Positions 17,887 through 44,013 of a DNA stretch of 64,000 nt are shown here, one piece after another. Numbering within the stretch: position 1 is the first letter of the stretch; each line of letters opens with the position of its first letter. The notes under the pieces were generated by a model. It saw only the letters and a list, made by a program, of their open reading frames with translations, searched no databases and was not told where the DNA came from. The translations under genes and the position numbers were made by a program. The DNA is from an uncultured Fodinibius sp. (GTDB lineage Bacteria > Bacteroidota > Rhodothermia > Balneolales > Balneolaceae): the NCBI GenBank assembly GCA_913056235.1, contig CAJXMW010000001.1, positions 1,240,001 to 1,304,000 on the forward strand. The letters are read 5' to 3'.

Positions 17887-17889
17887 CTT

Positions 17890-19139: not shown

Positions 19140-19511
19140 TTAGATTAATCGGAGTAGGGTACTGAATACCTTTCGAACAAATCCTCCAACCCGAATCAAG
19201 ATACGACTACCAAATTGATCTAGGACAATTCGTAGTTCATGTAGAAACAGGTCAAGCAGACGCTCCTTTTCTTGTGGGGAGAGTTTTCTTCCTTCTTCAC
19301 TATTTCGGTTGGTATATTGGGCATACAACCGAAGGATATTTTGGGCTTTCTCAAACAGGCTACGGATTTGAACGGAGGCCGATAGGGCAATTATTCCTAG
19401 AATAACCACGCCAATTTCGGCCAAGTTATTTGGAACCAGTAAGCCTGATAGCCAGTCTGCAGGGATTAGAATCAATGTGGCAGCGAATAAAAAAGATAGA
19501 ATTGTAATCAT
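19140..19511 (-). CDS. small membrane protein (virion block)
   Basis: 123-aa ORF with two N-terminal TM segments, last gene of the minus-strand block. Confidence 0.5.
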   Translation of the reverse strand: MITILSFLFAATLILIPADWLSGLLVPNNLAEIGVVILGIIALSASVQIRSLFEKAQNILRLYAQYTNRNSEEGRKLSPQEKERLLDLFLHELRIVLDQFGSRILIRVGGFVRKVFSTLLRLI

Positions 19512-19972
19512 AGGTTTTTCTTTGATTTATGGGGTTTGAATTGGGAAATTTTTTTGGCTTCGATTTTGAGGTCAGAGTAATCCTCATCAAACAAGGAGTT
19601 TCCAGGAATCTTGTGACTTTGATTCTTCTGTATCTGCTTCAGCCACTTTTGTCCTAACCCTTTAGCCTGCTTATTGGATAACCCATCCCCCTTTCCTTGA
19701 AGCAAATCATAAACAGGATTGGTTTGTGTGGCTCCTGATGAGATAGCGATCAAACCATAGAGGTATCCGACAATCTCAAGGATCGAAAGGATAAGCAGTA
19801 GGGTCGTATCAATTCCAGAGGCTGATAGCCTGCCGGTTGACAAAAGTCCAGATATGGTGAGGCTAGCGATCCCGCTTTTTACAATGCCCCTACCTTTTTC
19901 AGGGGTTTTGCTTTTGAATAAGCCAATTAAGGTAGGGACTGCCTTAATGATGGGTTTTAGTATTTTCAGCAT
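19508..19972 (-). CDS. membrane protein, candidate holin-like
   Basis: TM segments; start MLKILKPIIKA chosen (20092 extension overlaps upstream gene). Confidence 0.45.
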   Translation of the reverse strand: MLKILKPIIKAVPTLIGLFKSKTPEKGRGIVKSGIASLTISGLLSTGRLSASGIDTTLLLILSILEIVGYLYGLIAISSGATQTNPVYDLLQGKGDGLSNKQAKGLGQKWLKQIQKNQSHKIPGNSLFDEDYSDLKIEAKKISQFKPHKSKKNL

Positions 19973-20303
19973 CAGTAGTGTCTTGTTTGGTTGGGGATTT
20001 ATATTGGTGGATCCGGCGGGGGATGATTTCAAATTCAATCGATCGGATTCGCTGGTTATGATCTTCAAAGCGTCCGTTTGTACGCCGGACATGCGTTTCC
20101 AAGCTTTCTTCCAATTTGCTTAGGTTGTTAGCCTGTACTTTCACTTTCTCATTGATGCCAATCATCAGCTCATACCACTTTTTAATTTCGGCGGTCTGGT
20201 TATTGATCGAATCGTAGATGCCGGTCAAAAACAGGCAGATAATCGTGGTAACAATCAACTCCTTGTACTTTTGAAAGAAGCCATCTGTTTGGAATTTGCT
20301 CAT
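19944..20303 (-). CDS. TM + coiled-coil protein, lysis-module candidate
   Basis: N-terminal TM followed by coiled coil; adjacent to endolysin-like gene. Confidence 0.5.
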   Translation of the reverse strand: MSKFQTDGFFQKYKELIVTTIICLFLTGIYDSINNQTAEIKKWYELMIGINEKVKVQANNLSKLEESLETHVRRTNGRFEDHNQRIRSIEFEIIPRRIHQYKSPTKQDTTDAENTKTHH

Positions 20304-20833
20304 GGGTCGTACCTCCTTATTGCCTCATCCAGCGTTACGGATTGCTTGTTCGATTTGCAGTAAAAGAGGCCACTGGTTAGGGATTGGTAATAATATTGGC
20401 CGTCGATTCGGAGCCACCGCAGTGGGCGCCGGGACCGGTCGTTCCCGGACCATCCATCAACATGTAGCCCAATGGCAGGTACCGATGCTCCTTGCTTGTT
20501 GATATAGTTCCAGTCAAAGTATAGGCCTACGCCTTGGAATCCCCAGGTAGTGGCCAGTAGCCAGTGCCGGAGCGCGGAAGGTTGAGTAGTTAGCCACCGG
20601 TTAAAAAGAAGCACATCAAAGGCAAACCCTTGGCCGTGGGATTTGGGATCTCCCTTTCGCCAGGCCGAGGAGACTAGGGTGGGAAGGCGGTGCCACTGGC
20701 GCCAGGCTAGAAATGAGCGAAGAAAACCAATATCCATACGCTTCAGTGATCCCGGCCTCTGAATTTCGAGTTCCTTGATCGAGAAGTGGTTGCAGTAGCT
20801 GTCCAGCAGTGCGCTGTAATCTTGGGTATTCAT
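20300..20833 (-). CDS. M15-like peptidase (endolysin candidate)
   Basis: SAWRKGDPKSHGQGFAFDVL and GLHVD resemble the M15 HxxxxxxD...HxD zinc-site pattern. Confidence 0.6.
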   Translation of the reverse strand: MNTQDYSALLDSYCNHFSIKELEIQRPGSLKRMDIGFLRSFLAWRQWHRLPTLVSSAWRKGDPKSHGQGFAFDVLLFNRWLTTQPSALRHWLLATTWGFQGVGLYFDWNYINKQGASVPAIGLHVDGWSGNDRSRRPLRWLRIDGQYYYQSLTSGLFYCKSNKQSVTLDEAIRRYDP

Positions 20834-21105
20834 TATTTGTTCCCTCTTGTGGCTACAAGCAATAGGCCAACGACTGCTATCCCGGCAACAACTTTTATGG
20901 GCGTGGGTATTTCGCTGTTAATGTACTTTTTGGCTTCCTTCATGAGATCTTCTTGGGTTTCAGTGTTAGTTTCGTCCTGGTTTGATTCACCCAGGCCAGG
21001 GTGGCATCCGCAATCGCTTTGCAGGTACCCGGAACCGTTACCTAATGCGTGATCCTTACAGCCACAATTGCACGAATTTTCGGAGAGTTGTGATATATTT
21101 TCCAT
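20833..21105 (-). CDS. small Cys-rich protein with C-terminal TM
   Basis: CNCGCKD..SDCGCHPG N-terminus, TM IKVVAGIAVVGLLLVATRGNK. Confidence 0.5.
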   Translation of the reverse strand: MENISQLSENSCNCGCKDHALGNGSGYLQSDCGCHPGLGESNQDETNTETQEDLMKEAKKYINSEIPTPIKVVAGIAVVGLLLVATRGNK

Positions 21106-21142
21106 GGTGGGTTGGTAATTAGTTTGTTATCGTTGAATTGGG

Positions 21143-21601
21143 TTAAAAGAGGAGTTTCCAAAGTATTAGGCCGGATATTGTTGCTCCACCTGCTGCGGCA
21201 TGTGTTTTCTTGATCTCCATGCCACCTATATTCACGGTTCCATGCAGATAACCGCCGTTGGTATTCACTGAGCTATTTTGCGTAGATGTTTTTGCAGCTG
21301 GTTTCTGGTTGGGCTTCGCTTGCTCTTTCGTAGGGACCGGTGGTTTTTTCGGCAGTGTTACATTGATATAGCGAGGTGCTGGAATAGGGCTGCGATGTTC
21401 AATTACGGGATTTAAAACTGGCCTCCCGGCCGGTTTGGCAACTGTTGGTTTTGGGGGCAAAGTTTTGGACCCAGCAATGGTTCTGGCTGGTTTTCTGATT
21501 TCAACGGCGGGGCGTAGTTGGTGGCGGCGGATAGCTGGCAGGCGACCTAAGCCTTTCGGATTAGTCTGTTCGGCATCGATATAATGGGAGTCAGTGGTCA
21601 T
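21143..21601 (-). CDS. Pro/Lys-rich protein with C-terminal hydrophobic anchor
   Basis: 152-aa ORF, C-terminal GGATISGLILWKLLF. Confidence 0.5.
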   Translation of the reverse strand: MTTDSHYIDAEQTNPKGLGRLPAIRRHQLRPAVEIRKPARTIAGSKTLPPKPTVAKPAGRPVLNPVIEHRSPIPAPRYINVTLPKKPPVPTKEQAKPNQKPAAKTSTQNSSVNTNGGYLHGTVNIGGMEIKKTHAAAGGATISGLILWKLLF

Positions 21602-22158
21602 ACTTTCTGTGGGTTGATGTAGTTATAAGTTAGAAAGCCAACTGTGGCTAATGGCAGTAGATACGCCGATAGGCTAATGGCTTTAGAGGGACCCATCAGT
21701 TGGCCAATAAGCTCTTTGCGACTGAAGACATCGGTGCTATAATCTCCACCGGTCGTGACCGAATCCGGTGGAAGCCCTGCGTAAACAGCGCTTCGGACCT
21801 TGAAGGGCCCGGCATTATAGGCTGCAACTGCTTGGCTGATATTTCCGTTAAACTCCTTGATGATGTGCGCCAAATACTGAGCTCCGTAAGCGATATTTGA
21901 CTGGTGATCCAGTGGGTTGTGGCTATTGGTAAAGGTGGGGTGATGGCGTTTGTCGATCTGCATAATGCCGATTCCATTCCCATGGTCGCCGGTGCCGTCA
22001 GCAGAAAGGGCAAGTCCCATCCGGCTTTCTCGGGAGGCAATGGCCAACAGAAGATGCAAGGGAATCCCCTGTTGGGTGGATGCATCTGCGAAAAGGGAAA
22101 GAATACCGCGGAGCCGGATATACGTCAGCTCCGTTGATATGGATAGCGAGCTTGCCAT
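21598..22158 (-). CDS. lytic transglycosylase (SLT-like) with C-terminal TM anchor
   Basis: ASRESRMG..GIGIMQID..NIAYGAQYL..AVAAYNAGP and terminal TM. Confidence 0.85.
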   Translation of the reverse strand: MASSLSISTELTYIRLRGILSLFADASTQQGIPLHLLLAIASRESRMGLALSADGTGDHGNGIGIMQIDKRHHPTFTNSHNPLDHQSNIAYGAQYLAHIIKEFNGNISQAVAAYNAGPFKVRSAVYAGLPPDSVTTGGDYSTDVFSRKELIGQLMGPSKAISLSAYLLPLATVGFLTYNYINPQKV

Positions 22159-23612
22159 CAGGCCACCATTTTGATTTTATAGTTGACCTTCCGCATTTGC
22201 CCGGCCATAATCGTGAACTGATCTGCTGGCGCTAGAGCCTTGCGAGCAACGAGTTTGGGGGAGAATCGATAGGTGCTGTCATCATTTTTTGCGTACAGAC
22301 CAATCTCTTTAACCGTAATATCGGTTGTTCCTTTATTTTCGAATACTCGGGAAAGGTTATAATACGCCTCGTTATTGGTTTCATCGATGGTCACATTATC
22401 ATCAATCATCATGCCGTGATGAAGCAGTTGGCCGTCCCCGAATCCGTGGGTAATGCCACCCAGATTGTAGGGGGTATCGGGGGTCGCATCGGGGGAAAGA
22501 TCGGTGTCGGTCATCGAGACGAATTTGTTGCTTTGGCCAACCCGCAGCCCGAGTTGCCAACCTTTGTCACTGGTCGAAGCATTGTCCTCCAGCGAACACA
22601 TCGAGGTTCCCCCACCACCGATGCACATGAGCATCCGCGCCCAACCCGAATGGGTTGTTTCAACAGCTTGCCGCCGTAGTGCTTTGGCAAATTCGGCCAA
22701 AAATCCGCCGTTGGTTCCATTTAGGTCAGTATCTTGGTTGAAGTTTTCGAGCTCAAACCGGCATTCATAGTCTAGGGTTAGGGTCTTGCTGTCGGGCAGG
22801 TTAATAGCAGATTGGAGAATATCCCGAGCATGCAGGCTGCCTATCGTCTTCAGGGCATACCGGGACAGATCGATGTAGGTAACGAGTCCCATTTCACGGA
22901 TAGTGATGTCCCCACCCGTGGCATTGGTAAAGGGAGCAGAAATCGTAAAGATCGATTTTTCTTGGTCGGTAACGACACCGGAAACGGATACAGAACCCCG
23001 CGAGAGTAGGGCATCAATGGGATTTTCTAGGCCAACATCGGAAATGCTCAGTGGCCTTGTTCCGGCCCCAAGGGTAGGATATACTTTCCGGAAAGGCATG
23101 CAATACCGCTGGGTAGTAGCAATGTTCTTGTAGGTTTTGGAGATGCAGGTCGCATCATCGGCGACATAAGTTGAAGGATCAATCGTCGTGGGCGCGTCTT
23201 TGAGGCGAATATAGTCATTGTTGGTATGGGCACTTTCGACTTCCCACGTACCATTAAGCTCGGGGACGGACTGGCATCCCCAAATATGGACCCATACCGG
23301 TTCTTCTCCGTTTGGATTTCCTGAGTGAGAGCCGTTAAACACGTTACGCAGGTAGCTGCGATAGATTTCTAGGGCACCATCGACAATGTGAAGGCTGGTG
23401 ATCTTGTAATCAGGAACATACTGTTCTAGCGGAGATATGAGCCGCTGGGTTCGACCGCCGTGCATCATCCCGTGAATATCCCTGAGAAATCCTCCGACAA
23501 ATGACTCGCTGTGCAATCTAAGTAGGTGTTTACCGTCCATTCGAATATTACAGAACAGATCCATCCCGGATTTGGGTGTCCCAATTGATAAGGTGTGATT
23601 AATGGTATCCAT
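22158..23612 (-). CDS. putative virion (spike/fiber-like) protein
   Basis: Intact frame from ATG at 23612 (MDTINHTLSIG); repeated beta-rich segments with TxxxIGLYAKN/REMGLVTY motifs; listed ORF start 24122 overlaps upstream gene in another frame. Confidence 0.55.
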   Translation of the reverse strand: MDTINHTLSIGTPKSGMDLFCNIRMDGKHLLRLHSESFVGGFLRDIHGMMHGGRTQRLISPLEQYVPDYKITSLHIVDGALEIYRSYLRNVFNGSHSGNPNGEEPVWVHIWGCQSVPELNGTWEVESAHTNNDYIRLKDAPTTIDPSTYVADDATCISKTYKNIATTQRYCMPFRKVYPTLGAGTRPLSISDVGLENPIDALLSRGSVSVSGVVTDQEKSIFTISAPFTNATGGDITIREMGLVTYIDLSRYALKTIGSLHARDILQSAINLPDSKTLTLDYECRFELENFNQDTDLNGTNGGFLAEFAKALRRQAVETTHSGWARMLMCIGGGGTSMCSLEDNASTSDKGWQLGLRVGQSNKFVSMTDTDLSPDATPDTPYNLGGITHGFGDGQLLHHGMMIDDNVTIDETNNEAYYNLSRVFENKGTTDITVKEIGLYAKNDDSTYRFSPKLVARKALAPADQFTIMAGQMRKVNYKIKMVA

Positions 23613-23616
23613 GTAG

Positions 23617-24168
23617 TTAAGCGATTGTAGTGATAATATTAGTGTAGGCGTTTCCGGTCTGGGGCCGCTGCTCTTCTCCAATAGCCGGATCTGTTTGCAG
23701 GGTAGCTGATATCGGTCCGGAGCGGGAGATAGGGTCATAGTTTGCGGCAGGAGTAGTGAGAGCCGCCGGACGGAACTCGAATTGGGTAGCGTCGATTGGC
23801 GTAATATCAAGGGCGACGATTCCGAATGGGGTTTCGTTGATCTTCTGGACGTCATCGGGGGTGATGACCGAATAGATGGGGGACTGGCCGATGATTCCGC
23901 TGGATGTTTTCGAACGCACGCGGAAATAGTGGCGGGCATCCAGGTACGTAATGGGAAAATAAAGGGTGTGGTAACGAACCATCTCCGCTGGCTCCCGGTG
24001 ATACTCGGGGGTCCTAGCCAGGTTGCCCGGATCCAGTCCCCAATCCATCTGGGAAGAGGCCTTTTTGCCGGTGGCCCATGAGACCTGGATGGAGCCGTCG
24101 ACCAGCATACCGCTGACGACACGCATTTTAAATCCTTCGTTAAACTCTTTACCGGTGATTTCGCTCAT
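23617..24168 (-). CDS. putative virion protein with fibronectin-III-like segment
   Basis: SIQVSWATGKKASSQMDWGLDPG...YFRVRSKTSSG Fn3-like pattern. Confidence 0.45.
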   Translation of the reverse strand: MSEITGKEFNEGFKMRVVSGMLVDGSIQVSWATGKKASSQMDWGLDPGNLARTPEYHREPAEMVRYHTLYFPITYLDARHYFRVRSKTSSGIIGQSPIYSVITPDDVQKINETPFGIVALDITPIDATQFEFRPAALTTPAANYDPISRSGPISATLQTDPAIGEEQRPQTGNAYTNIITTIA

Positions 24169-24169
24169 G

Positions 24170-24589
24170 TCAGGCGCTCCAAAAGATTTCGGTTACGAGA
24201 GCTTTTGAGGTTTCCAGGGCTCCAGAGTTCTCATCCCATAGCCCCATCATGCCACCTTTGTAGAGTTCTTTGAACTGGCGCTCGTCCATGTGAAGCGTTT
24301 CACCGGGCTTGAGCTTGAAGGTATAGTGTCGGTCGTCAATACGACTGGTATCAAGGGCAATCATAAATTCTCCATCGCTGCTATTATGGATGATGACGCC
24401 CAGCCGCATGGGATTGCCGTTGACCAGTTTTACCGGATTGGTTCCCTGTTTGAGAACGGGCGAAATAGCGGTTCCAATTCGTTTGCCTCCCTGTGGGGCC
24501 GATGAGATATTTTGTCCACGAAGTTCAAGCAGCAGGCTATCCAGCTTTTGGGTTAGATCGCATAGGGATGTGATTAAGGCATTCCACAT
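24170..24589 (-). CDS. putative minor virion protein
   Basis: Intact beta-rich 139-aa ORF next to capsid candidates. Confidence 0.4.
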   Translation of the reverse strand: MWNALITSLCDLTQKLDSLLLELRGQNISSAPQGGKRIGTAISPVLKQGTNPVKLVNGNPMRLGVIIHNSSDGEFMIALDTSRIDDRHYTFKLKPGETLHMDERQFKELYKGGMMGLWDENSGALETSKALVTEIFWSA

Positions 24590-24592
24590 AGG

Positions 24593-25372
24593 TTATATCT
24601 CCAGTGGTTTGCTATCAGTTTGTTGGACCGCATATGCTTCACAGAGAAAACTTACGTTGGCCTGTGAGGGGCCTCTGTTGGAAGCATATACTTGAAACGG
24701 CATGTTGGAGCCAATGATAAACGGCACGTTGGCATAGAATTGGCTGAATTCATCATTGAGTTGTTCCAAGTAGATCTCATTGCGAATAGTCGTGTTATAG
24801 ACCTTCAGGCTGGTAGTGATATCACCGGGCCGGTCGCTGCTCATTGCCACCCGTCGAGCTTCCACATCAATACTTTTGGCTTTAACGCCTAGGTCTATAT
24901 TAACGGCCCCCGTTGGTAAGGTTGCCTGGCCATATAAGAAACGAGGTTGTGGCATCAGGGAACCGATGTCCTCGTAAATCGCGGAAAGTTTAGCCAGCCC
25001 AAAGTGATCGAATCCGACCACTTCCATATTAATGTTCTGCGAGGCGCTATGGGTATTGGTAAGTTCAAAGACGAGACTGTTGCTTTTCTGAATGATAAAT
25101 GGGGCAAGCAGGCCCTCGATGCGCTGGAAAAGTCGGTAGACGACGGCAAGCTGCAGGTCTCGAAACAGGTACAGGTCTTCATTTAGCCGTGCTGATACCA
25201 GCACCTTGTCCATGTTGGGGGCATAGGGGAGAATCCGGCGAACCCCGAAGCTTTCCCCGCCCATCCCGTTCATGATAATATGCCCACTTGCTCCCGCCGG
25301 AAGATCAACCGATTTGGCTGGATTGAAGGGCGTAGATTCGGTAGGTGGAATAAAATTCTTTACAATCTTCAT
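24593..25372 (-). CDS. candidate major capsid protein (beta-rich, 259 aa)
   Basis: Beta-rich, no TM or enzyme motif; adjacent to a second beta-rich protein in the virion block. Confidence 0.45.
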   Translation of the reverse strand: MKIVKNFIPPTESTPFNPAKSVDLPAGASGHIIMNGMGGESFGVRRILPYAPNMDKVLVSARLNEDLYLFRDLQLAVVYRLFQRIEGLLAPFIIQKSNSLVFELTNTHSASQNINMEVVGFDHFGLAKLSAIYEDIGSLMPQPRFLYGQATLPTGAVNIDLGVKAKSIDVEARRVAMSSDRPGDITTSLKVYNTTIRNEIYLEQLNDEFSQFYANVPFIIGSNMPFQVYASNRGPSQANVSFLCEAYAVQQTDSKPLEI

Positions 25373-25445
25373 CGCTGGTACGTTAAAGGATTAGAGCAAT
25401 ATTGAATAACCGGCAGCGGCACGGTACCGCTGCCGGTTGGAGAGG

Positions 25446-26066
25446 TTATTTTTCAGGCTTCATTTCGGCGACGACAATGCTTGCTCGCAGGTACAGCAGG
25501 CCTTGGCCGGAGGTGGTCCAGTTCTCATCGCTGGGAAACACCGAGGCGTCATCAAAGTGAACCGACAGCGATAAGGTTTGGTTAACCGCCAAGTCAAAAG
25601 GATCAGCTAGGCGATACTCATCAGCAGATTTGAGCGAGGCAATACGCTTGAAGACCACGGGAGCATCTACGGTATTGGCCGTACCTGCTACCATATGCAT
25701 GCCCGTGCCGGAAAAATTGGAGTGCTTGGAGATCGGCACGCGCAGGAATTCTTTGTTGTCATTGTCGGCCTGCAAAATAACTCCGGCATCTTTCAGGGAG
25801 TTGACAATGCCTCGCGAGTCGATGCCATTGGCATCATCATCCTCGATAAACTGCTTCGTGACTTCGAACGATAGCGCCAGAATACGTCGCTTCAGCTCTC
25901 CCGGGAAGGGGTTGCCCACGTAATTGTTGCGGGTAATTTTCCGCGTCGAGTTGGGCGGGAAAAAGTTTACGACCGCCCCATTTTGTTCCACCTTTTGCGT
26001 GTCAAAATAGGTTTTGATGCGGGCACTGGCGGGTACAATTGCTTTTTTAGTAATTTGGTTGCTCAT
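25446..26066 (-). CDS. candidate major capsid protein (beta-rich, 206 aa)
   Basis: Beta-rich, soluble, adjacent to the 259-aa protein; two-MCP arrangement as in P23-77-like viruses (inference). Confidence 0.45.
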   Translation of the reverse strand: MSNQITKKAIVPASARIKTYFDTQKVEQNGAVVNFFPPNSTRKITRNNYVGNPFPGELKRRILALSFEVTKQFIEDDDANGIDSRGIVNSLKDAGVILQADNDNKEFLRVPISKHSNFSGTGMHMVAGTANTVDAPVVFKRIASLKSADEYRLADPFDLAVNQTLSLSVHFDDASVFPSDENWTTSGQGLLYLRASIVVAEMKPEK

Positions 26067-26166
26067 AGCTTGTAGTGTTAAAGAGATTTTAGTTGGGCCA
26101 TATGGCGATTTAGCTTATTCCCGTAAGCAGTCTCTGGGCAGTGAGAGCTATGAGTAGAAAGAGGGG

Positions 26167-26688
26167 TTATACCTCCACGGTTTCCTCAAATGCGTTTTCG
26201 ATTTGGGTTACATGGCCGGTTTGCGGGGGGAGTTGGGCTGCAGGCGCGGTTGGCGCGGGGAGGTCTTGATCATCCCACAGGTATTCACTTCCTTCCATCA
26301 GTCCTTGAGAGGGCGTCCAGTCGGGCATGACGAACTTGATCAGTTCCATGACGCCTTGCACGCCGAGACCCATAGCCAGGCCGCGAAGGTGGGGGTTTTT
26401 GGTAAACATGGTAAAGACCATGCCGAGCGTGAGGGGCAGGCCAACGCGGGCCGCTTGCTGGACAGTAGCTGAGCTGCCGCCAAGAATAGCGGGAACGGCC
26501 AGCCCGTTCAGCTGCGCGCCAATGGCCTGGCCGCCCACAATATATCCGGCAGTGATAAGCTGTTGCTTGAATTCGCCGACAGCCTTTTCGGTAGTTGTTT
26601 GTTTTGCCATAGTTGCAGGTTTTGGAGTTGTTGGGTTTTCGATTATATCCAAGTGGGTTGGATTTTTTGCAAATATTCGTTGGGTCAT
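26167..26688 (-). CDS. multi-TM small membrane protein (virion membrane candidate)
   Basis: 173 aa with hydrophobic Gly/Ala-rich segments. Confidence 0.5.
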   Translation of the reverse strand: MTQRIFAKNPTHLDIIENPTTPKPATMAKQTTTEKAVGEFKQQLITAGYIVGGQAIGAQLNGLAVPAILGGSSATVQQAARVGLPLTLGMVFTMFTKNPHLRGLAMGLGVQGVMELIKFVMPDWTPSQGLMEGSEYLWDDQDLPAPTAPAAQLPPQTGHVTQIENAFEETVEV

Positions 26689-26706
26689 GGTAGGGCTATG
26701 ATGGGA

Positions 26707-32700: not shown

Positions 32701-33957
32701 TAACGGGTAGGAGGTGTAATGCTCGTTGAGTAGGCCGCGCTCAGTGCCGGTTCGGTCCTCGCCGTACCCCAATCCACCAGCTCCGGTGTACCGGCGAAGA
32801 ATGTCCAGGTCCGATTCGGTGATGGCCCGATTTTCTTTTTCCAAGACCGCTAGGGCCGCTTCGTTGGCCCGGCGTCGCTCGGATTTCGAAAGTTTTATAG
32901 GAGTAAAATTTTCAAGTTGGAGGCCGGAAAAATTGCTTCCATATTCGGCTTCTCCCGGCCGATCTCCGGGGGCTTGGTATGATTGGTCGCCGTTTTTTTC
33001 AGGGCTTTTCGATTTCTTTTGGGCGACGGAAAATACCTCGTCGAAATCGACGCCAACCGCTTCCCCATGTTCGCGAAATAGTTTCAACGCCTGCTCGCGA
33101 TGTTCCTTGGGAAACTTATCGAGCGAAAAGGCCAGAGCCAGTTTCTGTACCGTCTGGGTGAAAGAATCTTGGAGCGCCTGCAATTCACTCGAAGGGTTTT
33201 CGCGGGAGGTTAGTTGCTCTGTCAATTTTGTGGGGTTGTCCAGAAGAGCATCGATTTTATTTGCGGCAGCTTCATCCCCTTGGTCCGCTTGCCAGGCCAG
33301 ATCAGTGAGATGGTTCATTCGTTGGGTATTGAGGGCGCCATTTTTGTACGGGGTGTGAGCTGCACTGGCTATTTGGGCCATACGCTTGGTCTTTACCTGT
33401 ACCTCAACAGGGATATCTCCCTCTTGACCAGCCATGACAATAAAGTGGTGGGCCCGATAACCGCCAACCGGATTGGCGTATTTATTTTCATGTTCAAATA
33501 CGTTGCCAATGGTTCCTGAAGCAATTTTTTGGGCTACCTGATCCAGCTCAGCTTGTCCGTCCAATACAATCATGCACCCGGCCATATCGGTCAGGCCTTG
33601 GGTATAGAGCTGGCCGGTGCCAGCTTGCTTAATATCGGCTTTAGTACGCTTGCGCCGCAATTTGTTGATGACCGAATAGGGGGATTTCACGCGGCCCTTG
33701 ACGGTGGCGGTCGGGTGCAAGTCTTTGAGCGAAGCTATTACTTCATCCAAAGCCTGCTGGTAGTCCCCGCGAAGGGCAATCAGCTGTTTAATTTCTTCGG
33801 TGAGTTTGGTCTCCTCAACAGTCTCGGTGTCCCCGTCTCGTTGTGGATTAGGATCGTCGGCATTCGGGATCCCGTCTTCATCGAAGTCGCCAAAAATGCC
33901 GGGATAGTCCTCGGTTGTAATGTCTTCAAAAGGCGTAACAGTCGGATTGTCTCGCAT
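26707..33957 (-). CDS. polyvalent protein: RelA/SpoT-like domain + N6-DNA methyltransferase-like domain + SNF2/DEAH helicase
   Basis: GRVKSPYSVINKL..DMAGCMIVLDG..GYRAHHFIVM..VEVQVKTKRMAQIASAAHTPYK (RelA/SpoT); NILEPGAGIGNFAGF..GNVPFGD (MTase); CHDVGAGKTLASI..DALFFDEAHFYKN..VLTATPV..RNGRGLRQGN (SF2). Confidence 0.85.
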   Translation of the reverse strand: MRDNPTVTPFEDITTEDYPGIFGDFDEDGIPNADDPNPQRDGDTETVEETKLTEEIKQLIALRGDYQQALDEVIASLKDLHPTATVKGRVKSPYSVINKLRRKRTKADIKQAGTGQLYTQGLTDMAGCMIVLDGQAELDQVAQKIASGTIGNVFEHENKYANPVGGYRAHHFIVMAGQEGDIPVEVQVKTKRMAQIASAAHTPYKNGALNTQRMNHLTDLAWQADQGDEAAANKIDALLDNPTKLTEQLTSRENPSSELQALQDSFTQTVQKLALAFSLDKFPKEHREQALKLFREHGEAVGVDFDEVFSVAQKKSKSPEKNGDQSYQAPGDRPGEAEYGSNFSGLQLENFTPIKLSKSERRRANEAALAVLEKENRAITESDLDILRRYTGAGGLGYGEDRTGTERGLLNEHYTSYPLVQLIWKKLQAMGVEGGNILEPGAGIGNFAGFLPNSDHYRMLMVERSAVSSRIAKLLYPTQLVRHQNFAETDLSLYNLTGAIGNVPFGDIKVHTQRDPLAHLNPRIHDYFILKSLDALQPGGFMAAITSVGTMDKKDPAIRQAMVQRARFVGAYRLPSTAFKDNADTLVTTDLILFQKYPDIDGEQHPDVTSKLNQLFAYEELAVSITEHNGESYGAYYNPYFQKYPNQVLGEHIQGHDMQFLTRMGVKGQVNNKLTDRVIGDDLQFPYPLPKQLPFYRIPDEGIRLDTGRDYHAGNIIYHEGTFYEKQRHYFKPITVGTSDKTGEGLRAKISSACQMLDTYDDFVTALAQDTAQKEPLRGEFKQLLGTHIDTYGIPDEDEDIRQVFRYDNRLYKLTTFVKRDPISGELVYADIIDADSMFNDNYVPAVSDSDDLAEIAMYGRSIGEELTLDFYQSTYKGGTANRAELTQAIEEHPDFFYNPESNGYEFRYQYLAGNVRHKLQVAEDNQLEKNTKALKAVLPEWIDAYSITVDPHHIFTYLPTKVLTQWIKDELGYRDVHIGLVKDKADLGNRFYMKLRKGGRYIKNGEETADDWNQGWGETPFSKIINNYIQDSSFPLVFYDEDDNVLPNMTLKRAEQTGQQALIERARAKQRTHNDQMLTRVPQKFNQWVRTKTSTEIRELIEEAYNHEYNAHINPQFDGATLRVRGMSDTFYGVKDFSVYKHNRAVAEKLVWNGRGANCHDVGAGKTLASIITSQVLAQQGACRKPMFVVPGKVQEKWVEEYSMLFPDAKILNMKMAGPERHRELTMAQLYNWDAIFIADHAFKSLPLSPAVQQQMYSDRVEYFDQMIEHFDELIEEDDALSSTAKKSMVTRLEKMKEEWEAKLRNVANAKRLDTDIFFDELGVDALFFDEAHFYKNALGSAKAAKLGIAANKPSQRAEDALQKTKWLFSKIGFKNVFVLTATPVVNSPVEVWHMLNLCAPDLLEKYQIANLDNFINQFVREEEKIVKKTNGEYRTERVVGGYYNLPEMRSIIDEVMDIKSYDQLVGFYDKFPDLLKDEAGNLEVDEKGNPKTLKPKFKRPEAETKQQVIQPSEIHKLLFDDIILRADNILDCMRQRGCQTKDNFLVITGDGSKIATDLRVYDNSFKGVDGKFLKLGTLVENVAESYAHRENPAPSRVPESIYGDFFSKVPSARENPNPYESRSRHNLIKELKSLAYFEEVAQEIKATEGNLHAVPVGKQFLLNKIEKQREKFSDGSDQIEETFDKAIMIVEALYASRENPTTPIFRNQIIFCDWISVEGQKGGSYHQLIKEELTKAGIPAKEIAIINGSIIGTDKKGDDYFISSSDDKEALKKEVQDDFNVGKYRVLIGNQSIAEGMNLQKWTTDLHHMDVPYTPSQIQQRNGRGLRQGNQHGKVNIHFYLMKDSFDQYRLELVSKKQSWIDELFFGDARETSADSDGESLEYEQMVAATNSDPRVKEFFQSKAQTKVLKARIESLLSETQRLESSLAQASGDVTKRSERMESAIQREQALIDSELPNSGAEALENGLIRIGWLDYSGEIGTIENNLSSDGKRIPRFRHELTLEVPKNNANGRVLFNLIPDPNAPNRSFYNKIKWSSIKQMAGDQLNETFGWSMDEPVQSGRSLAGNKGNIIADESDFYAHYEIDIDAEKQTSNTDDSDVTYDQIKQQLGMYKLQRWLPIIKTKLADLFLALEKGWQQSAQARIQQITSELGRSKKTLKELEITHEQTRKELGQAQVNLKTNQDTVTKLQDVVNELVKTKFTDRAELYEELNRIAPTYGIKGTVRAREVGIYRDGTKPKQARPNRAEYSQPQQLENLPQPLKTLFGEPLVYAGTVGELEFIDTKGFMQRIQSDQLAMIIDGEGTTLFGFPTHRMKLLKGAFDSDEAEQMYQEFHHFPADGYDFELFPPMGAELVSVGHAERIMYGSDKVIYPGDKKGENHQYYHYFDDGMRPIFQYGDVYIITSLNIDERGILN

Positions 33958-33961
33958 AGGG

Positions 33962-35245
33962 TTATCCCAGTATTTTGGTTAGGAAGTCGTCCAGTTTGGC
34001 CTGGCTTTCTTTGGCCGCTTCAATGTCGATGGGTTGCCGGGTTTCTGCATCAGAAGAAGTGTCTTTCTCTTTTGGCGCAGTCTTGACTTGTTTCTCGGCA
34101 GTGGTAGGCTTGCTTTTGGTAGGTTGCTTTTTGGTTTTCGATGGAGGTGAGCTGGGTGGGGTAGGTTTGGGTTCCTTTTTGGCCAGGGCCCGTTCCTGGC
34201 GCTTGTATTCCTTGGCGCCCAGTACCACTTTGGCGTGATCTTGCTTGAAGATTCGGATCTCGAGGTCGCCGTATTTGTTGACCAATTTTTTCCAGCATGC
34301 TTTTAATCCGCCACCAGTACCTTCGGTACAGGCTTGGTACTCCAGGTGGCCATCGAGGAGCAGGTCCATGATATATCGCTTTTTGGGATAGTCGGCCGTA
34401 TAACGAATCGACAGGTGGGCGTTTTCAGATTCCCCGGAATGCCGTGGGGCATAGCAGGGCATCTTGCTACCGAACATCGAGTTGATGCGTTTCCAGGAGC
34501 GAATTTTGTGGAGATTGTCTAATTTTTTGAGGGTGATTTTAAACGGAGTATCTACGGGGTTTTCGCGGTTGTCGGGCGACGCTTGTTTCGAGGATTTAGG
34601 TTTTGGTGACACTTTTCGGTCGGCGGCCGTAAATGGCACGGCAATGGCCGTAAGTTCCCGGTAGCGGTTCTTCTCGGTTTCGGCGCCACCTTCTTTGGTA
34701 ACCTTGATTTCAATATCACATTCGTGGGCAATGCTGGTGTTGCCTTTGTATTGCCCGTCTTTGGTGGCATGGGAAACCATCACAAACATGATCCCGTTTT
34801 CGCGGCACCACTGGGCTAGTTCCACGGTTTCCTTCGCGTTGGCATCAATGACGGAGATGGAATCCAGGATGCACCCGAACGACCGGTTTTTGAGCAGTAT
34901 TTCTTTAAGGGACTGAATGGATTTCCACTTCGTAAAATTGAGGTTCCGGTGGGTAGCTCCCAGTCGCTTCACGCGGTCGACCAGTGTTTTGCCAAAATGT
35001 TCTTCGGCGGGGATATATTCGATGCGCCCATGGGCGGCCAGCGCGTCGGCCAGTCCCAGACTCATGGTTGATTTACCGGCTCCTTTTTCGCCCCAGATAA
35101 AGATTACGGCATTTTTTTCGGGCTCACCGAGCAGTCGTCCGTAGGGCGGGGCTATTTTTATGCCTTTAATGTTCAACTTGGAAAGCTGCTGAGCAGTCAT
35201 TGATTCCATATTATTGTCGTCTGATAGTTTTAATTGCGATTCCAA
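33962..35245 (-). CDS. RecA/RadA-superfamily P-loop ATPase
   Basis: Walker A IWGEKGAGKSTMS, Walker B CILDSISVID, RadA-like MVSHATKDGQYKGNTSIAHECDIEI. Confidence 0.75.
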   Translation of the reverse strand: MESQLKLSDDNNMESMTAQQLSKLNIKGIKIAPPYGRLLGEPEKNAVIFIWGEKGAGKSTMSLGLADALAAHGRIEYIPAEEHFGKTLVDRVKRLGATHRNLNFTKWKSIQSLKEILLKNRSFGCILDSISVIDANAKETVELAQWCRENGIMFVMVSHATKDGQYKGNTSIAHECDIEIKVTKEGGAETEKNRYRELTAIAVPFTAADRKVSPKPKSSKQASPDNRENPVDTPFKITLKKLDNLHKIRSWKRINSMFGSKMPCYAPRHSGESENAHLSIRYTADYPKKRYIMDLLLDGHLEYQACTEGTGGGLKACWKKLVNKYGDLEIRIFKQDHAKVVLGAKEYKRQERALAKKEPKPTPPSSPPSKTKKQPTKSKPTTAEKQVKTAPKEKDTSSDAETRQPIDIEAAKESQAKLDDFLTKILG

Positions 35246-35534
35246 TGGCGATAATAGTCAGGCTGCCAAAAAGCAGCACCTTGTGGTTTACCGATGTCGG
35301 TGGTGGCCCTTGGGTTATGGCTTTCGGGTTAATGCCAAGTTTTTGTAGTAGCTCCTGACCCGCTATGCCGCTGGTTGGGAGTCCCAGTTGTTGTTGGGCT
35401 TGCTTGACGGCTGCCTGCGTTTCCGGGCCAAAGATGCCGTCAACGCCATATTTTGGGAGCTCGATACCAAGAGCTTTCAATGCTGATTGCAGGTGCATGA
35501 CCTGCGGTCCTTTATCACCTATTTTGAGGGTCAT
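35211..35534 (-). CDS. peptidoglycan-binding domain protein with C-terminal TM
   Basis: GDKGPQVMHLQSALKALG..YGVDGIFGPETQAAVKQAQQQLGL plus tail VLLFGSLTIIAIGIAIKTIRRQ. Confidence 0.85.
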   Translation of the reverse strand: MTLKIGDKGPQVMHLQSALKALGIELPKYGVDGIFGPETQAAVKQAQQQLGLPTSGIAGQELLQKLGINPKAITQGPPPTSVNHKVLLFGSLTIIAIGIAIKTIRRQ

Positions 35535-35941
35535 GATGAAGATCGTTGTTGGTTTATGACGGTGAGTCCGGCAATGCCGATGGCGATGCCAACGGATAGC
35601 AGGCCGGCGTGTTTGAGTGCGGCTACGGGTTTGCTGCTTGCTACGGTTTCCTGAAGACCCACAAGATCACTTACCGCCTGCAGGTCGACATATTCGAAGT
35701 ACTGGTTGATCACCTCGGCATTTCGGTTGTAGACAGTATTTAACCCCTCTTTATCGGTCGTTAGATCGGCCATAATTATTGCGGTCGTAGCCGCTTTTCC
35801 TTTCTTGCCGCTTAAGGCCCGATCGGCAAGGCCAATGGCTTTGCGAAACGCATTCTTGCCGGTCTGACGCAGGTAGCTGCTAAGATCGCCCATGCCATCA
35901 TCAACAATCTGATAATCGCGGCCTTCAATTAACTCATGCAT
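35531..35941 (-). CDS. small protein with C-terminal TM
   Basis: Start MHELIEGRD at 35941; C-terminal LLSVGIAIGIAGLTVINQQRSSS. Confidence 0.5.
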   Translation of the reverse strand: MHELIEGRDYQIVDDGMGDLSSYLRQTGKNAFRKAIGLADRALSGKKGKAATTAIIMADLTTDKEGLNTVYNRNAEVINQYFEYVDLQAVSDLVGLQETVASSKPVAALKHAGLLSVGIAIGIAGLTVINQQRSSS

Positions 35942-36617
35942 CCGGTTTCTCCTTCTGTGTGCTCTTTGATAGTTGTTTGATGCTATCACGCAAACCCGGC
36001 ATGAGGGGAGCCAGGAAGTACGCTCCGGCTCCGAGGCCCACCAGCCACAATGCTTTGGTGAGGGTACTGTTGACACCGTTGAATGCACTTTGCGGGCTCG
36101 GCAAGCTAATCTGATACCACGGTTCGGTGGGAGGAGCATATACCCCGCTTTGTTGGCCTTGGTCGATATCCAAATCCAGCGTCATAACCTTAGAGGCTGC
36201 AAGCGGTTTGGCCTCGGATATATTGGTTTCCGTAACATTGCTGGGATGCAGCTCAAAGATGACTGGGTGATTGCGGTCCGGGCGAAACGATCGCCCGAAG
36301 ACCAGTCGCGTTTGCCCACGGCATCCGTCCCACATGCTGGTCAGGATGCGGGATATGGCCAATATCTTTCGGGATTGTGGATCGAGAGCGGCTATTACAG
36401 CATCCGGACATGATATAAGCAGAAACGAATTCCAAATGTTGCGGTACCGGTCGATTTCAATATCAACGGAAAAGGGCACCCCGTTTTTGGGTAGTCCGCG
36501 CTCCGGATACCGCCCGATAATGCGAACTTCACCTGCCTCAGAGCTAATAATATTTCCTGTAATGCCGGCCGAGCCTAGCCCGTGATCGCTATATGCGGAG
36601 TGTATGGTCTGTGTCAT
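35934..36617 (-). CDS. beta-rich protein with near-C-terminal TM
   Basis: 227 aa; TM ALWLVGLGAGAYFLAPLMPG. Confidence 0.5.
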   Translation of the reverse strand: MTQTIHSAYSDHGLGSAGITGNIISSEAGEVRIIGRYPERGLPKNGVPFSVDIEIDRYRNIWNSFLLISCPDAVIAALDPQSRKILAISRILTSMWDGCRGQTRLVFGRSFRPDRNHPVIFELHPSNVTETNISEAKPLAASKVMTLDLDIDQGQQSGVYAPPTEPWYQISLPSPQSAFNGVNSTLTKALWLVGLGAGAYFLAPLMPGLRDSIKQLSKSTQKEKPDA

Positions 36618-36618
36618 G

Positions 36619-36927
36619 TTATCTTCGTCTGGTTAAGATTCGAAATCCGATGTATCCGCCAGCAATCCATCCTAAGGTTTTACTGTTCCGGCTAAACCAT
36701 TCCCGGATCTCACCGGTGGGGTGAGGACCGGAAAGCCGCTGGCAGATTGATTGCTTTTCGGAGGATTTAATCTCGGCCCCTTTGGGGATTTCCTGCACCT
36801 GGATAGCCGGTTGCAGGTAGATCGTTTCTTCCGATGGGGAGGGGTTTGGATAGCGGCCGTTGGGAATATGGCCATCGAGATAATGAGAAATTCCTACCGG
36901 ATGGGCGGGATAAGTGACTTCGATCAT
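36619..36927 (-). CDS. small protein with C-terminal TM and basic tail
   Basis: TLGWIAGGYIGFRILTRRR end. Confidence 0.5.
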   Translation of the reverse strand: MIEVTYPAHPVGISHYLDGHIPNGRYPNPSPSEETIYLQPAIQVQEIPKGAEIKSSEKQSICQRLSGPHPTGEIREWFSRNSKTLGWIAGGYIGFRILTRRR

Positions 36928-36928
36928 A

Positions 36929-37294
36929 TTAGGATTTCTTTTTTAATAAGGTGTACATGACTGTTCCCCCAACGGCCACTACGCCGCCAATGAGTAAGAT
37001 AGATGTCATGCTGTCTCCACTGGATTTCTGGGATTGCATCAGCGCCATTTGCTGCTCAGGCGTAAGTCCTGGATGTCCAGAGTTATTGTTACCTCCATTG
37101 ATCACCCCATCAACGGTTACGGCCGTATCGGCCGCAGTCGTAAGAAAGCTTGACAGGTCATTTAAAATGCTGCCAAACTTGGTTTTCTTTGAGGTGGTGG
37201 ACCTCGTAGGAGGTAGTGAGGGACTTGTTAAGCTATAGTTAAACGGTCGGGTGGTTTGCAAGAAATCAATTTGATCGAAAGAGCTGCTGTTCAT
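36929..37294 (-). CDS. small protein with C-terminal TM and basic tail
   Basis: SILLIGGVVAVGGTVMYTLLKKKS end. Confidence 0.5.
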   Translation of the reverse strand: MNSSSFDQIDFLQTTRPFNYSLTSPSLPPTRSTTSKKTKFGSILNDLSSFLTTAADTAVTVDGVINGGNNNSGHPGLTPEQQMALMQSQKSSGDSMTSILLIGGVVAVGGTVMYTLLKKKS

Positions 37295-37303
37295 AGTGGC
37301 AGG

Positions 37304-37726
37304 TTACGCAGGTTGAGAGTTAGTTTTTTTCTTTTTGGCAATAAGCAAAATGGCCGTTCCCAGGATGGCTACGCCACCAACGGCGGCTCCCGCTATCATG
37401 GCCGTAGAAGCCGTCTGCTGTTTTTCCGCGGTATCGGTCACGTTATGCTGAAGGGCCGTCATGAGCTGCTGTTTCTCCTGCTCCATGGTTTTCTTTTCGG
37501 CCAGCTTGCGCTCGTGGGCTTTGCAGAGGGCTTGCGATTTTTCGCGTTTCCGCCGGCACCTCTTTAATGCCCCAAACATCTTGCCCCGGCAGCTTTGGTT
37601 GGCATACCGGCAGGGATCATCTTGTTCCCATCCGGCAAATCCACTTGGACTAGTCAGGTTGTTTGTAATGATCAACTGATCATCATCGCTTGTTATCGCT
37701 ACTGGTTGTATGTACGAACTGCTCAT
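37304..37726 (-). CDS. small protein with C-terminal TM and basic tail
   Basis: TAMIAGAAVGGVAILGTAILLIAKKKK end. Confidence 0.5.
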   Translation of the reverse strand: MSSSYIQPVAITSDDDQLIITNNLTSPSGFAGWEQDDPCRYANQSCRGKMFGALKRCRRKREKSQALCKAHERKLAEKKTMEQEKQQLMTALQHNVTDTAEKQQTASTAMIAGAAVGGVAILGTAILLIAKKKKTNSQPA

Positions 37727-37731
37727 AAAGG

Positions 37732-38763
37732 TCAGGAGTGGTTAAGGGCCCAATATCCGGCGCCGGTAAATGCGATTAGACCTACCGATAGCCCGCCGTA
37801 GAGGAGCCATTTCTTGGTTGTTCGTTGCTGTTGGTCTGCAAAAAAATTGTTGTCCAGACTACCAAATCTGTTCAGGTAGTCAACGGCTGGCTGTCCGTAA
37901 TTTTGGATAACTTGAGCGTACTGTTGGAGCACGGCGTTATCTTTTTGAGAAAATGAAATAACATCCGATCGAACGCCTCGGGCCATCAGATAGTCTCGCC
38001 ATTTTCCGCGCTGGATGCGCTCGTCCTTATCCTTGGCGCCAAACCATTTTGAAAACATGCTTTTCATGGTGATGCCTGTTTGCAGAGCCGTGGTTGCAGC
38101 CGTTGCAGCAGTAATCGGATCAATCCCTAAATGATTAGGCATCTTGTTGAGGAGATGATTAGATTTTTTGATAAGGGTTTCATCGAAGGCAAACCCAGGA
38201 TATTTGGCTACGGTCGTATCAAAAGATTTCCATCCATCGGGGGAGCGAAAGACGGTATAGATATGATCGTAGTTTCGCCCGGTTCGGCTTAAAATCCGAA
38301 ATCCAGTTTGAATGCCCAGGGTTTGTAGCAACGCGGCCGACAATATCGCGTGATCGTCGCAATCACCCGCCTTTTGTTTGAGCGTTACATCCGGGGATTG
38401 AATGCGTTCAATGTTCCAGGGATCCCGAACGTAGTTGATATTGTGGGTTATCCATCGGTACAGGGCCTCGGCAACCTGTTGGGTATTTCGAAGGTTAGGA
38501 AGTCCGGTGTCTCGGTTGGGGCGTATGCGACGAGTAATGGAAAGGGCCAACTTCCGAAGGTCTTCGTGGCCGGTGTATTTCGTTACAAGTCCGGAGGCTA
38601 GCCCGAGTACATGGTTAATGCCCGGATATGTCCGGCGCTGGGAAAAAATAGGGGCGGCAGCATTACCGTGTGTGGGATTTGCTGCCGCCTTATTGCTCAT
38701 CACTAAACCGTCGGTAGTGACTGCTTTTCGGGAAGGGGTGATATGAGGATAATGGCTGCTCAA
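37732..38763 (-). CDS. transglutaminase-like cysteine protease domain with C-terminal TM
   Basis: Cys-His-Asp: QKAGDCDDHAILSAALL / YDHIYTVF / SFDTTV; terminal TM KKWLLYGGLSVGLIAFTGAGYWAL. Confidence 0.75.
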   Translation of the reverse strand: MSSHYPHITPSRKAVTTDGLVMSNKAAANPTHGNAAAPIFSQRRTYPGINHVLGLASGLVTKYTGHEDLRKLALSITRRIRPNRDTGLPNLRNTQQVAEALYRWITHNINYVRDPWNIERIQSPDVTLKQKAGDCDDHAILSAALLQTLGIQTGFRILSRTGRNYDHIYTVFRSPDGWKSFDTTVAKYPGFAFDETLIKKSNHLLNKMPNHLGIDPITAATAATTALQTGITMKSMFSKWFGAKDKDERIQRGKWRDYLMARGVRSDVISFSQKDNAVLQQYAQVIQNYGQPAVDYLNRFGSLDNNFFADQQQRTTKKWLLYGGLSVGLIAFTGAGYWALNHS

Positions 38764-38987
38764 GAGCGGTAGGTGATATAGTCAAGTAAAAGTTGCAGGC
38801 CGTGCTCGGGATTACGGGTTGTTACATTACCCAGGCGCTTTGCCAATTTTGGGTCAAGGTCGCCCAAACTGATAAGTACACCTGCGAATTGACGGGAGCG
38901 TGTGATAGTCGTTATTCCCGGGTCATCCAATTCCTTGTAGATATTATCCCGAAGGCTCGTAACAGTTTGTTGGGTAATGGTTGGCAT
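38760..38987 (-). CDS. hypothetical small protein
   Basis: 75-aa ORF overlapping its neighbour. Confidence 0.4.
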   Translation of the reverse strand: MPTITQQTVTSLRDNIYKELDDPGITTITRSRQFAGVLISLGDLDPKLAKRLGNVTTRNPEHGLQLLLDYITYRS

Positions 38988-38996
38988 AGCTGTTGA

Positions 38997-39401
38997 TTAT
39001 GGTTTGGGTCCGTTGGACGTGACCAGTTTTTGCAATTCAATAATGATTTCTGTGAGGAGCGCTTTGATCTGATTGCTCACGGTGATACCGCTGAAGCGTA
39101 GCAGCTGGTCGGTAGCGAAAGGGGCAGGGATATAGGCAAGCGTAGTAGCGTGTTGCCCTAATCCATCCACAAGGGGATATACGGTTTTTGCAATGCGTTC
39201 GGCTCCTATATCCCTGCTTATCGCTTCTTCAGAAAGTAGTTTAGCCATGCGTGTCCAATCCTGTATCGTAATCGGGCGTCCATAAGACTGCATCAGTGCC
39301 AGTTGTGATTTGATGCGTTTTGCGTAGCGTCCGTAGGGCTGCGGGTAGTCGCCTAGATATTCGAGGGCCATTTTGAGTAAGGGGATATGATCAGGATTCA
39401 T
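38997..39401 (-). CDS. hypothetical protein
   Basis: 134-aa ORF in the operon. Confidence 0.4.
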   Translation of the reverse strand: MNPDHIPLLKMALEYLGDYPQPYGRYAKRIKSQLALMQSYGRPITIQDWTRMAKLLSEEAISRDIGAERIAKTVYPLVDGLGQHATTLAYIPAPFATDQLLRFSGITVSNQIKALLTEIIIELQKLVTSNGPKP

Positions 39402-39421
39402 GGCAGAGATGGGTATGATAA

Positions 39422-40423
39422 CTAAAGGGTTATGTTTGGCTGGTGGTGTCCATTGACAGCTGGAGGAGTAAAACTGCCGTTAAGAGTAGGGCCCTCTACG
39501 TCTCCGCCTTGCGGCTCCAGATGGCTGGGCATATCGGCGGGAAGGTGCCGAGGAGTCTCCTCCCCGGCACCTTTGGATTGTTCGGCTTCGTTGTTGAGGA
39601 GGGCATCTTGTTGGGGTAGGGAAGAGTTTTGTTTGGCCTGTATGCTGTTGGCTATCGAGGCTTTTAAAGCATTGGCTTGTTCGGCAGATAGTTGGTCTTG
39701 TCCGCCACCGGTCCGTTGGGCAAAGAGTCCTGAGATGACGCTAAAAAACAATGGCGCATTTTCCTCAAGCATATCTAACATGCGACTTCCGGCATCACGG
39801 CCGCCCGCTCGCTGTTCCATTTCCATGCGGAATTTTACCTTTTCCAGTTCTCCGAGCTCTTTTTCAAGGTCTTTGAGGTCTGTTCGGTGAAGTTCTTTGA
39901 GGCGGTCGATCTCATTGCGGTGGGACTCTTTCAGGTCGCCCAGCTCTTTCTGATGGGTGAGTAAGGTCGTGGTTTTGTCCTCGGCAAGTTCCCGCTTCAG
40001 ATTCATAATTTCATCGACCTGCTGGCGGATCTTACGGTCCGCATCGTGAAGTTCTCCTTCCAACCGAAGAATACGATTGCTGTAATAGTCCTCATCTTTG
40101 GTCTCCCTGGAGCCCATTGGTTGCTCGAACAGATCAGCAGCTACTTCAGCGTGTTTATTGGGTCCGTCAATCCGGAAATTAATTTCGATATCCTGGTCGG
40201 CACCGGTATGCAGGGTATAGATGCCGGGCTGGAGGCGACACATGGCCTTGGCCACGTTAAAAGGAGATCGAATATTGAACGGAATGTCCTTTTCGACGTC
40301 GATAAAGTCATCGGTTCTACCGGAAATGCGCCCGAAAATAGGCATGCCATCTTGCATTTCCTGGAGCGTGGTAGCAAAATCGCGTTGCTGGGTTTCTAAG
40401 GTATCTGGCAAATGTTCAGGCAT
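39422..40423 (-). CDS. coiled-coil protein, first gene of virion operon
   Basis: 333 aa with long coiled coil, followed by a hydrophobic stretch PLFFSVISGLFAQ. Confidence 0.55.
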   Translation of the reverse strand: MPEHLPDTLETQQRDFATTLQEMQDGMPIFGRISGRTDDFIDVEKDIPFNIRSPFNVAKAMCRLQPGIYTLHTGADQDIEINFRIDGPNKHAEVAADLFEQPMGSRETKDEDYYSNRILRLEGELHDADRKIRQQVDEIMNLKRELAEDKTTTLLTHQKELGDLKESHRNEIDRLKELHRTDLKDLEKELGELEKVKFRMEMEQRAGGRDAGSRMLDMLEENAPLFFSVISGLFAQRTGGGQDQLSAEQANALKASIANSIQAKQNSSLPQQDALLNNEAEQSKGAGEETPRHLPADMPSHLEPQGGDVEGPTLNGSFTPPAVNGHHQPNITL

Positions 40424-41491: not shown

Positions 41492-41497
41492 GTTTGG

Positions 41498-41624: not shown

Positions 41625-41646
41625 GGTTGAAATTCAAGAGATTAAC

Positions 41647-42586: not shown

Positions 42587-42600
42587 AAAAATTTCTAGCA

Positions 42601-44010: not shown

Positions 44011-44013
44011 TTT

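Follow-up and report, generated by a model that had tools for sequence, protein, structure and literature searches.

The 64,000-nucleotide window analyzed here, from the genome of an uncultured Fodinibius sp. (its named relatives indicate the genus Aliifodinibius/Fodinibius), contains at positions 19140 to 40423 a 21-kb block of genes that all run in one direction. The locus raises the question of what kind of element this block belongs to and how far that element extends. An original prediction, made without database searches, proposed an integrated tailless, membrane-containing virus resembling Salisaeta icosahedral phage 1 (SSIP-1) and P23-77. We conclude that the block very probably represents the entire virion operon of an SSIP-1-like temperate virus without a tail, the virus being inserted into tRNA-Arg(acg) of its Fodinibius-type host. 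This interpretation is firmly based on homology and gene order and is further supported by attachment sites, purifying selection and relatedness among elements, and a tailless morphology and an internal membrane would be expected by analogy with SSIP-1.

Collinearity of the virion operon with SSIP-1

The block comprises 24 to 25 tandem open reading frames (ORFs; approximately 25 genes), all on the minus strand and running from 40423 to 19140 as one operon according to ORF calls and translations, and the coordinates and orientation first assigned to it were thus correct. Its G+C content of 0.49 to 0.53 (approximately 50%) exceeds that of the adjoining stretches (approximately 0.31 to 0.40; approximately 37%). 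As had been claimed, no terminase, portal, tape measure, sheath, HK97 capsid or tail family was detected among the operon proteins in Pfam and PHROGs scans, and the many small transmembrane (TM) proteins noted earlier are represented by eight small ORFs with a hydrophobic segment, which is C-terminal in five of the eight (simple hydropathy scan).

In the literature, SSIP-1 is an icosahedral phage that contains a membrane (PMC6356626, PMC5332951), and its genome was described as hardly resembling anything in GenBank (PMC6356626). In a tblastn search against 50,697 phage records, SSIP-1 was the sole match of the 259-amino-acid (aa) protein of the block (gp47, E 0.02) and the best match of its ATPase (gp40, E 4e-23). 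Family hidden Markov models (HMMs) were then built from elements of Fodinibius and other Balneolaceae, with SSIP-1 left out, and searched against SSIP-1; they matched gp33, gp34, gp35, gp36, gp40, gp43, gp44, gp45/46, gp47, gp48 and gp54 in strict operon order. Control searches against reversed SSIP-1 proteins and P23-77 ORFs were empty, save for generic SLT matches and a near-decoy score of the 333-aa protein. The order and depth of the matches are therefore not attributable to chance. Because the SSIP-1 record annotates gp34, gp40, gp43, gp44, gp45, gp46, gp47 and gp48 as structural, among them the partners of the 206-aa and 259-aa proteins, the operon is considered to be an SSIP-1-like virion module. 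The gene order comparison with SSIP-1 that had been suggested thus yielded collinear homologs of at least 10 of its proteins, annotated structural ones included: gp34 to gp36, the gp40 ATPase, the giant methylase gp43, gp44, gp45/46, gp47, gp48 and the SLT protein gp54. An integrase and a halophilic host are further points of likeness, whereas protein identity is merely 20 to 44% and the integrase, replication and cargo genes are not the same.

The window element carries adjacent candidates for a small and a large major capsid protein, homologous to gp45/46 and gp47, respectively. The former is the 206-aa protein (25446 to 26066; gp45, E 1e-29; gp46, E 2e-16), and the latter is the 259-aa protein (24593 to 25372; gp47, E 8e-31). 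Since gp45 and gp46 (34635 to 35959 of the SSIP-1 record) both match the 206-aa family, the small capsid protein appears to have been duplicated in SSIP-1, which has two such paralogs against one in the Fodinibius elements. The candidates are flanked by homologs of structural gp44 (26167 to 26688; E 2e-11) and gp48 (139 aa, 24170 to 24589; E 6e-4, best decoy 0.36).

The ATPase (33962 to 35245), a candidate packaging or entry motor of the RadA/KaiC type, matches structural gp40 (HMM E 5e-48) and phrog_6891 (E 7e-27); its best Pfam match is AAA_25/KaiC, its nearest cellular homolog is RadA, and the A32-type packaging ATPase family Pox_A32 was matched with an E value of 0.016 only. The largest gene of the operon, which was missing from the initial gene list, encodes a 2416-aa protein (26707 to 33957) homologous to structural gp43 (E 4e-16) and to the DarB proteins of phage P1 and its relatives (phrog_10089, E 1.7e-169). 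The DarB homology covers the methylase and SNF2 helicase parts, and this large protein type is likewise annotated as structural in SSIP-1. In phage P1, DarB is carried in the head. The window homolog differs from DarB in its location within a tailless-virus operon and in its fusion to an N-terminal RelA/SpoT domain (Pfam, E 4e-13), which is kept in the element of genome G056 but is not detected by Pfam in SSIP-1 gp43, where a ParB_N-like stretch is found instead.

Extent of the integrated unit and its attachment sites

The block is the virion operon only; the integrated unit is three to four times longer, rather than 21 or 45 kb. A tyrosine integrase gene (63365 to 64531, minus strand; PHROGs integrase, E 2e-52; PF00589) had been placed at 59.7 to 64 kb and is indeed present, but only its C-terminal part (63365 to 64000) lies in the window. 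The gene adjoins a tRNA-Arg fragment that forms the left attachment site (attL) just outside the window, at 64688 to 64768 in window numbering (G000:C1:1304688-1304768, contig 1 of the host genome). This location at tRNA-Arg(acg), together with the integrase and the flanking tRNA repeats, fits a temperate integrating virus. Downstream of the integrase, the left module encodes a small helix-turn-helix (HTH) protein, which is an excisionase candidate (62992 to 63336, minus strand; weak HTH_17 match; phrog_4745, DNA binding) found in the same place in all tRNA-Arg elements; a Cro/C1-type repressor (62566 to 62976; HTH_19, phrog_8), the only divergent gene of the module, on the plus strand; and a 712-aa replication protein candidate (59714 to 61852, minus strand; weak match to the primase family phrog_1829, 0.002). 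Homologs of the last occur in all elements, with identities of 80 to 94% within the genus and 23 to 29% in distant elements. Across the genus, elements of the tRNA-Arg type start with the tRNA and the integrase gene, continue with the small HTH gene, the divergently oriented repressor gene and the 712-aa gene, and then carry a variable first cargo region (cargo 1), the virion operon and a likewise variable second cargo region (cargo 2).

A tRNA search revealed displaced 3′ halves, each beginning within the anticodon stem-loop, at 69 to 98 kb from the tRNA. Eight ends were compared, and in seven of them the approximately 110 bp preceding the displaced half resemble one another; six of these seven contain two copies of the integrase arm site GTACTACA at a distance of 12 bp, and the same pair precedes the integrase. 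Elements of the tcg type carry another arm word, likewise at both ends. Each unit contains one tyrosine integrase (PF00589), and unit lengths are 69.3 (G009), 73.1 (G005a), 87.1 (G007a), 88.7 (G005b), 90.1 (G002), 94.8 (G003) and 96.5 kb (the host-genome unit own1). For the window element, the right attachment site (attR) has two candidates on contig 1, a degenerate one at 1235961 to 1236008 and an intact one at 1228942 to 1228988, which would give units of 68.8 and 75.8 kb, respectively; they lie at about −3992 and −11012 in window numbering, and the unit consequently overruns the window on both sides. A provirus end approximately 100 bp past 19140, after the gene for a 123-aa protein, was considered and dropped, as no attachment repeat occurs there and the conserved end is found a long way further left.

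To the right of the window, a 46.7-kb tRNA-Arg element (G000:C1:1304768-1351377) carries a related integrase and the bacteriophage exclusion (BREX) genes for BrxC, PglX, PglZ and BrxL, without virion genes; it is possibly a satellite, or an island that competes for this attachment site. Within own1, the unit of the second host-genome element, three additional complete tRNA-Arg genes were observed (G000:C1:441623-473760), and G005b also holds extra tRNA copies.

Distribution of related elements and selection on the operon

The 206-aa family was found in 21 of the 244 genomes of the class, representing 5 of its 89 genera. The host genome itself holds three elements. Besides the window element, contig 1 carries a further one at tRNA-Arg(tcg), and contig 5 carries a divergent one, which spans 40.9 kb between tRNA-Pro and an exact 45-nucleotide copy of the tRNA-Pro 3′ half, with the integrase beside the tRNA. 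The same arrangement is seen in a compact relative, G007b (38.2 kb between exact tRNA repeats), and the G056 element is a 39.5-kb unit between two tRNA-Met copies. These compact members of 38 to 41 kb match SSIP-1 (43.8 kb, circular double-stranded DNA) in size, and they establish the group as temperate. The prediction of a temperate element with a large cargo is therefore upheld: a tyrosine integrase, a repressor, a tRNA attachment site and both defense and adaptive cargo are present.

The virion operon is conserved among the tRNA-Arg elements of the genus. Its genes are open, and the ratio of nonsynonymous to synonymous polymorphism (pN/pS) lies between 0.04 and 0.4 for all block genes tested, indicating purifying selection. 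The 206-aa gene is the most conserved (0.04 to 0.10), followed by the genes for the ATPase and DarB-like protein (0.11 to 0.14) and the 259-aa protein (0.11 to 0.16), and values of 0.33 to 0.39 were obtained for the 183-aa gene. The spike candidate is exchanged as a unit, sharing 91% identity with two elements and approximately 70 to 72% with most others.

Remaining genes of the operon

The operon begins with a 333-aa coiled-coil protein (39422 to 40423), a weak match to gp33 (HMM E 6e-4; decoy 0.005), and a 134-aa protein (38997 to 39401) that matches part of gp33 (E 4e-16). These are followed by a transglutaminase-like protein (37732 to 38763; structural gp34, E 1e-44; PF01841 core, E 2e-10), two small proteins of 140 and 121 aa with C-terminal TM segments (36929 to 37726) conserved in all tRNA-Arg elements, a gp35 homolog (35934 to 36617; E 4e-8) and a TM protein homologous to gp36 (35531 to 35941; E 7e-8), the 202-aa ORF of which is shortened to approximately 136 aa by comparison with relatives. 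The peptidoglycan-binding protein (35211 to 35534; PF01471 [PG_binding_1], E 3e-16), which also has a C-terminal TM segment, precedes the ATPase gene. Beyond the capsid candidates, relatives resolve a 654-aa ORF into a spike or receptor-binding candidate of approximately 496 aa (22158 to 23648), exchanged between elements as described above, and a separate 183-aa gene (23617 to 24168) that lies between the capsid and spike candidates and is conserved among elements. Next are the SLT transglycosylase (21598 to 22158; PF01464, E 3e-16; gp54, E 4e-48) and a 177-aa protein (20300 to 20833), which is kept in all tRNA-Arg and tRNA-Met elements, and the operon is closed by three small proteins with TM segments (19140 to 20303; hydropathy scan and relatives). 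The SLT, peptidoglycan-binding and ATPase assignments made at the outset are thus borne out by profile searches. The M15-like peptidase label of the 177-aa protein derives solely from an SxHxxGxAxD...HxD pattern read by eye; the pattern is present, but Pfam returned no match for this protein.

Cargo regions

Cargo 1 (40799 to 59467) is variable and mainly of the defense type, encoding a type IIG restriction-modification protein, an E1-E2 fusion with JAB, AbiEi, Fic and HEPN proteins. The restriction-modification protein (54261 to 58103) is split between two ORFs, which align to successive stretches of a single model, perhaps owing to a frameshift. Cargo 2 (1 to 19032, extending beyond the window) consists of a type II secretion/pilus-like operon (9086 to 19032; Secretin, E 6e-45; T2SSE, E 2e-138) and RHS-type genes. 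The possibility that the secretion operon at 9 to 19 kb is part of the core chromosome was considered but rejected, since its GspF gene has only approximately 25% identical relatives in the genus. In G003, cargo 2 encodes resistance-nodulation-division (RND) efflux systems, P-type ATPases, a multicopper oxidase and DsbD. Across the tRNA-Arg units of 69 to 95 kb, the adaptive cargo following the virion operon amounts to 23 to 57 kb. Between G002 and G003, DNA identity is 86% in the virion operon, mostly 89 to 91% in shared cargo 2 (longest pieces; some 78 to 84%) and 78% in the host flank. The virion operon and most of the shared cargo are therefore closer than the host flank, which fits horizontal movement, as expected of mobile DNA. 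The efflux/P-type ATPase cassette directly follows the virion operon in G003 and lies at the right end beside attR in G002, a permutation which is unexplained.

Alternative explanations

Several observations weigh against the interpretation of the locus as an SSIP-1-like provirus. On the right, the closest end of the window element is degenerate (a single arm site and a tRNA half of 79%), making the exact end uncertain; right flanks beyond attR are not common to the genomes, and an empty site (G006) gave no right-hand match. Units of 69 to 95 kb exceed the 43.8-kb SSIP-1 genome, and SSIP-1 lacks counterparts of the spike candidate and of several small genes. With respect to the capsid, reviews put SSIP-1 and P23-77 together in one group, that of viruses with two types of major capsid protein (PMC6356626, PMC4958249, PMC5332951), and the general order of ATPase, small major capsid protein, large major capsid protein and transglycosylase is shared with the Thermus phages P23-77 and IN93 (Matshushitaviridae, Halopanivirales). 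However, these phages have genomes of 17 to 20 kb without a giant DarB-like gene, and their capsid proteins show no sequence or profile match: hhalign comparison of the capsid families with P23-77 VP16/VP17 gave probabilities of <2%. The operon ATPase did align with that of P23-77 (hhalign, 81%), which may reflect a shared P-loop. Of the original twofold comparison, the SSIP-1 half thus stands, while the tie to P23-77 rests on the published grouping. PDB profile searches with the 206-aa and 259-aa proteins returned no match, and AlphaFold models of these proteins, on which the suggested jelly-roll test depended, were unusable (predicted local distance difference test scores of 37 and 31; six close sequences).

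The length of the units invites the explanation that they are composites, in which a normal SSIP-1-like provirus of 40 to 46 kb lies beside older islands at a tRNA-Arg hotspot, the inner attachment site having been lost. The adjoining BREX-bearing element with its related integrase marks such a hotspot, and the extra full tRNA-Arg copies in own1 and G005b, the permuted cargo order of G002 versus G003 and the compact size of the 38- to 41-kb relatives would all be accommodated. However, an inner tRNA-Arg fragment is absent between the integrase and the far end in G002, G003, G005a, G007a and G009, each unit has a single integrase, and the conserved end with its arm sites is confined to the far end and never follows the 123-aa gene, such that independent loss would be needed in all of them; we consider this explanation unlikely, if still worth serious attention. 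The 69- to 95-kb tRNA-Arg unit is well supported as the integrated unit; as a particle genome it is unproven.

A domesticated or dead provirus, the virion genes of which are reused as a gene-transfer agent or host secretion device, would be consistent with the wide occurrence of the elements in the genus, their large host-useful cargo and the fact that particles are not known. Conservation of the attachment sites, integrase and replication genes makes this improbable, as do the two distinct tRNA-Arg copies in the host genome, whose 259-aa proteins are only approximately 80% alike, the movement of elements between species and the exchange of the spike gene; all of these features are typical of active viruses. 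Although size and cargo resemble those of integrative conjugative elements, it is very improbable that the locus is an element of this kind which acquired virus genes and moves by conjugation: a complete virion operon is maintained under selection, and the type IV secretion system coupling protein PF02534, the only mating family tested, gave no match above the cut-off in six element-carrying genomes. A diverged tailed phage with head and tail genes beyond recognition, which might be suggested by the DarB-like protein, since most proteins of this type are known from tailed phages, is scarcely credible in view of the collinearity with SSIP-1 and the lack of terminase, portal and tail families.

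Proposed life cycle and implications

For the SSIP-1-like provirus, protein roles and inducibility can be proposed from homology to SSIP-1, domain content and the DarB precedent of P1. The integrase beside the tRNA would recombine in the anticodon stem-loop, restoring the tRNA, and the repressor, excisionase candidate and 712-aa protein would govern lysogeny and replication. On induction, the 206-aa and 259-aa proteins are predicted to build the shell, with the small TM proteins residing in an internal membrane and the gp40-like ATPase packing or translocating the DNA. The SLT, peptidoglycan-binding and M15-like proteins may breach the cell wall when the virus enters or leaves the cell. Because its SSIP-1 homolog gp43 is annotated as structural, the giant DarB-like protein is proposed to be carried in the particle, where it may guard the entering DNA against restriction in the manner of DarB in phage P1.

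It is conceivable, though we hold this only tentatively, that the whole 69- to 95-kb unit, including 23 to 57 kb of metal efflux, secretion and other host-useful genes, is excised by the one integrase and packaged in SSIP-1-type particles, tailless virions thereby acting as gene-transfer vehicles for large cargo. Should such packaging of the long units occur, adaptive DNA on the scale of whole islands would travel in tailless viruses, a form of transfer that has to date been ascribed chiefly to tailed phages and conjugation.

Scans of IMG/VR with the 259-aa protein, the 206-aa family alignment, the ATPase and a 62%-identical 259-aa homolog returned no relatives, no account of SSIP-1-like proviruses was found in the literature searched, and SSIP-1 had been the sole relative within the phage collection searched. 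SSIP-1 now gains close kin in the form of integrated relatives across the Balneolaceae, with culturable hosts in Fodinibius salipaludis, F. salsisoli and F. sediminis; strains that carry the element include F. salsisoli 1BSP15-2V2 and F. sediminis DSM 21194. This family of elements allows capsids and attachment sites to be compared and shows that such viruses are temperate.

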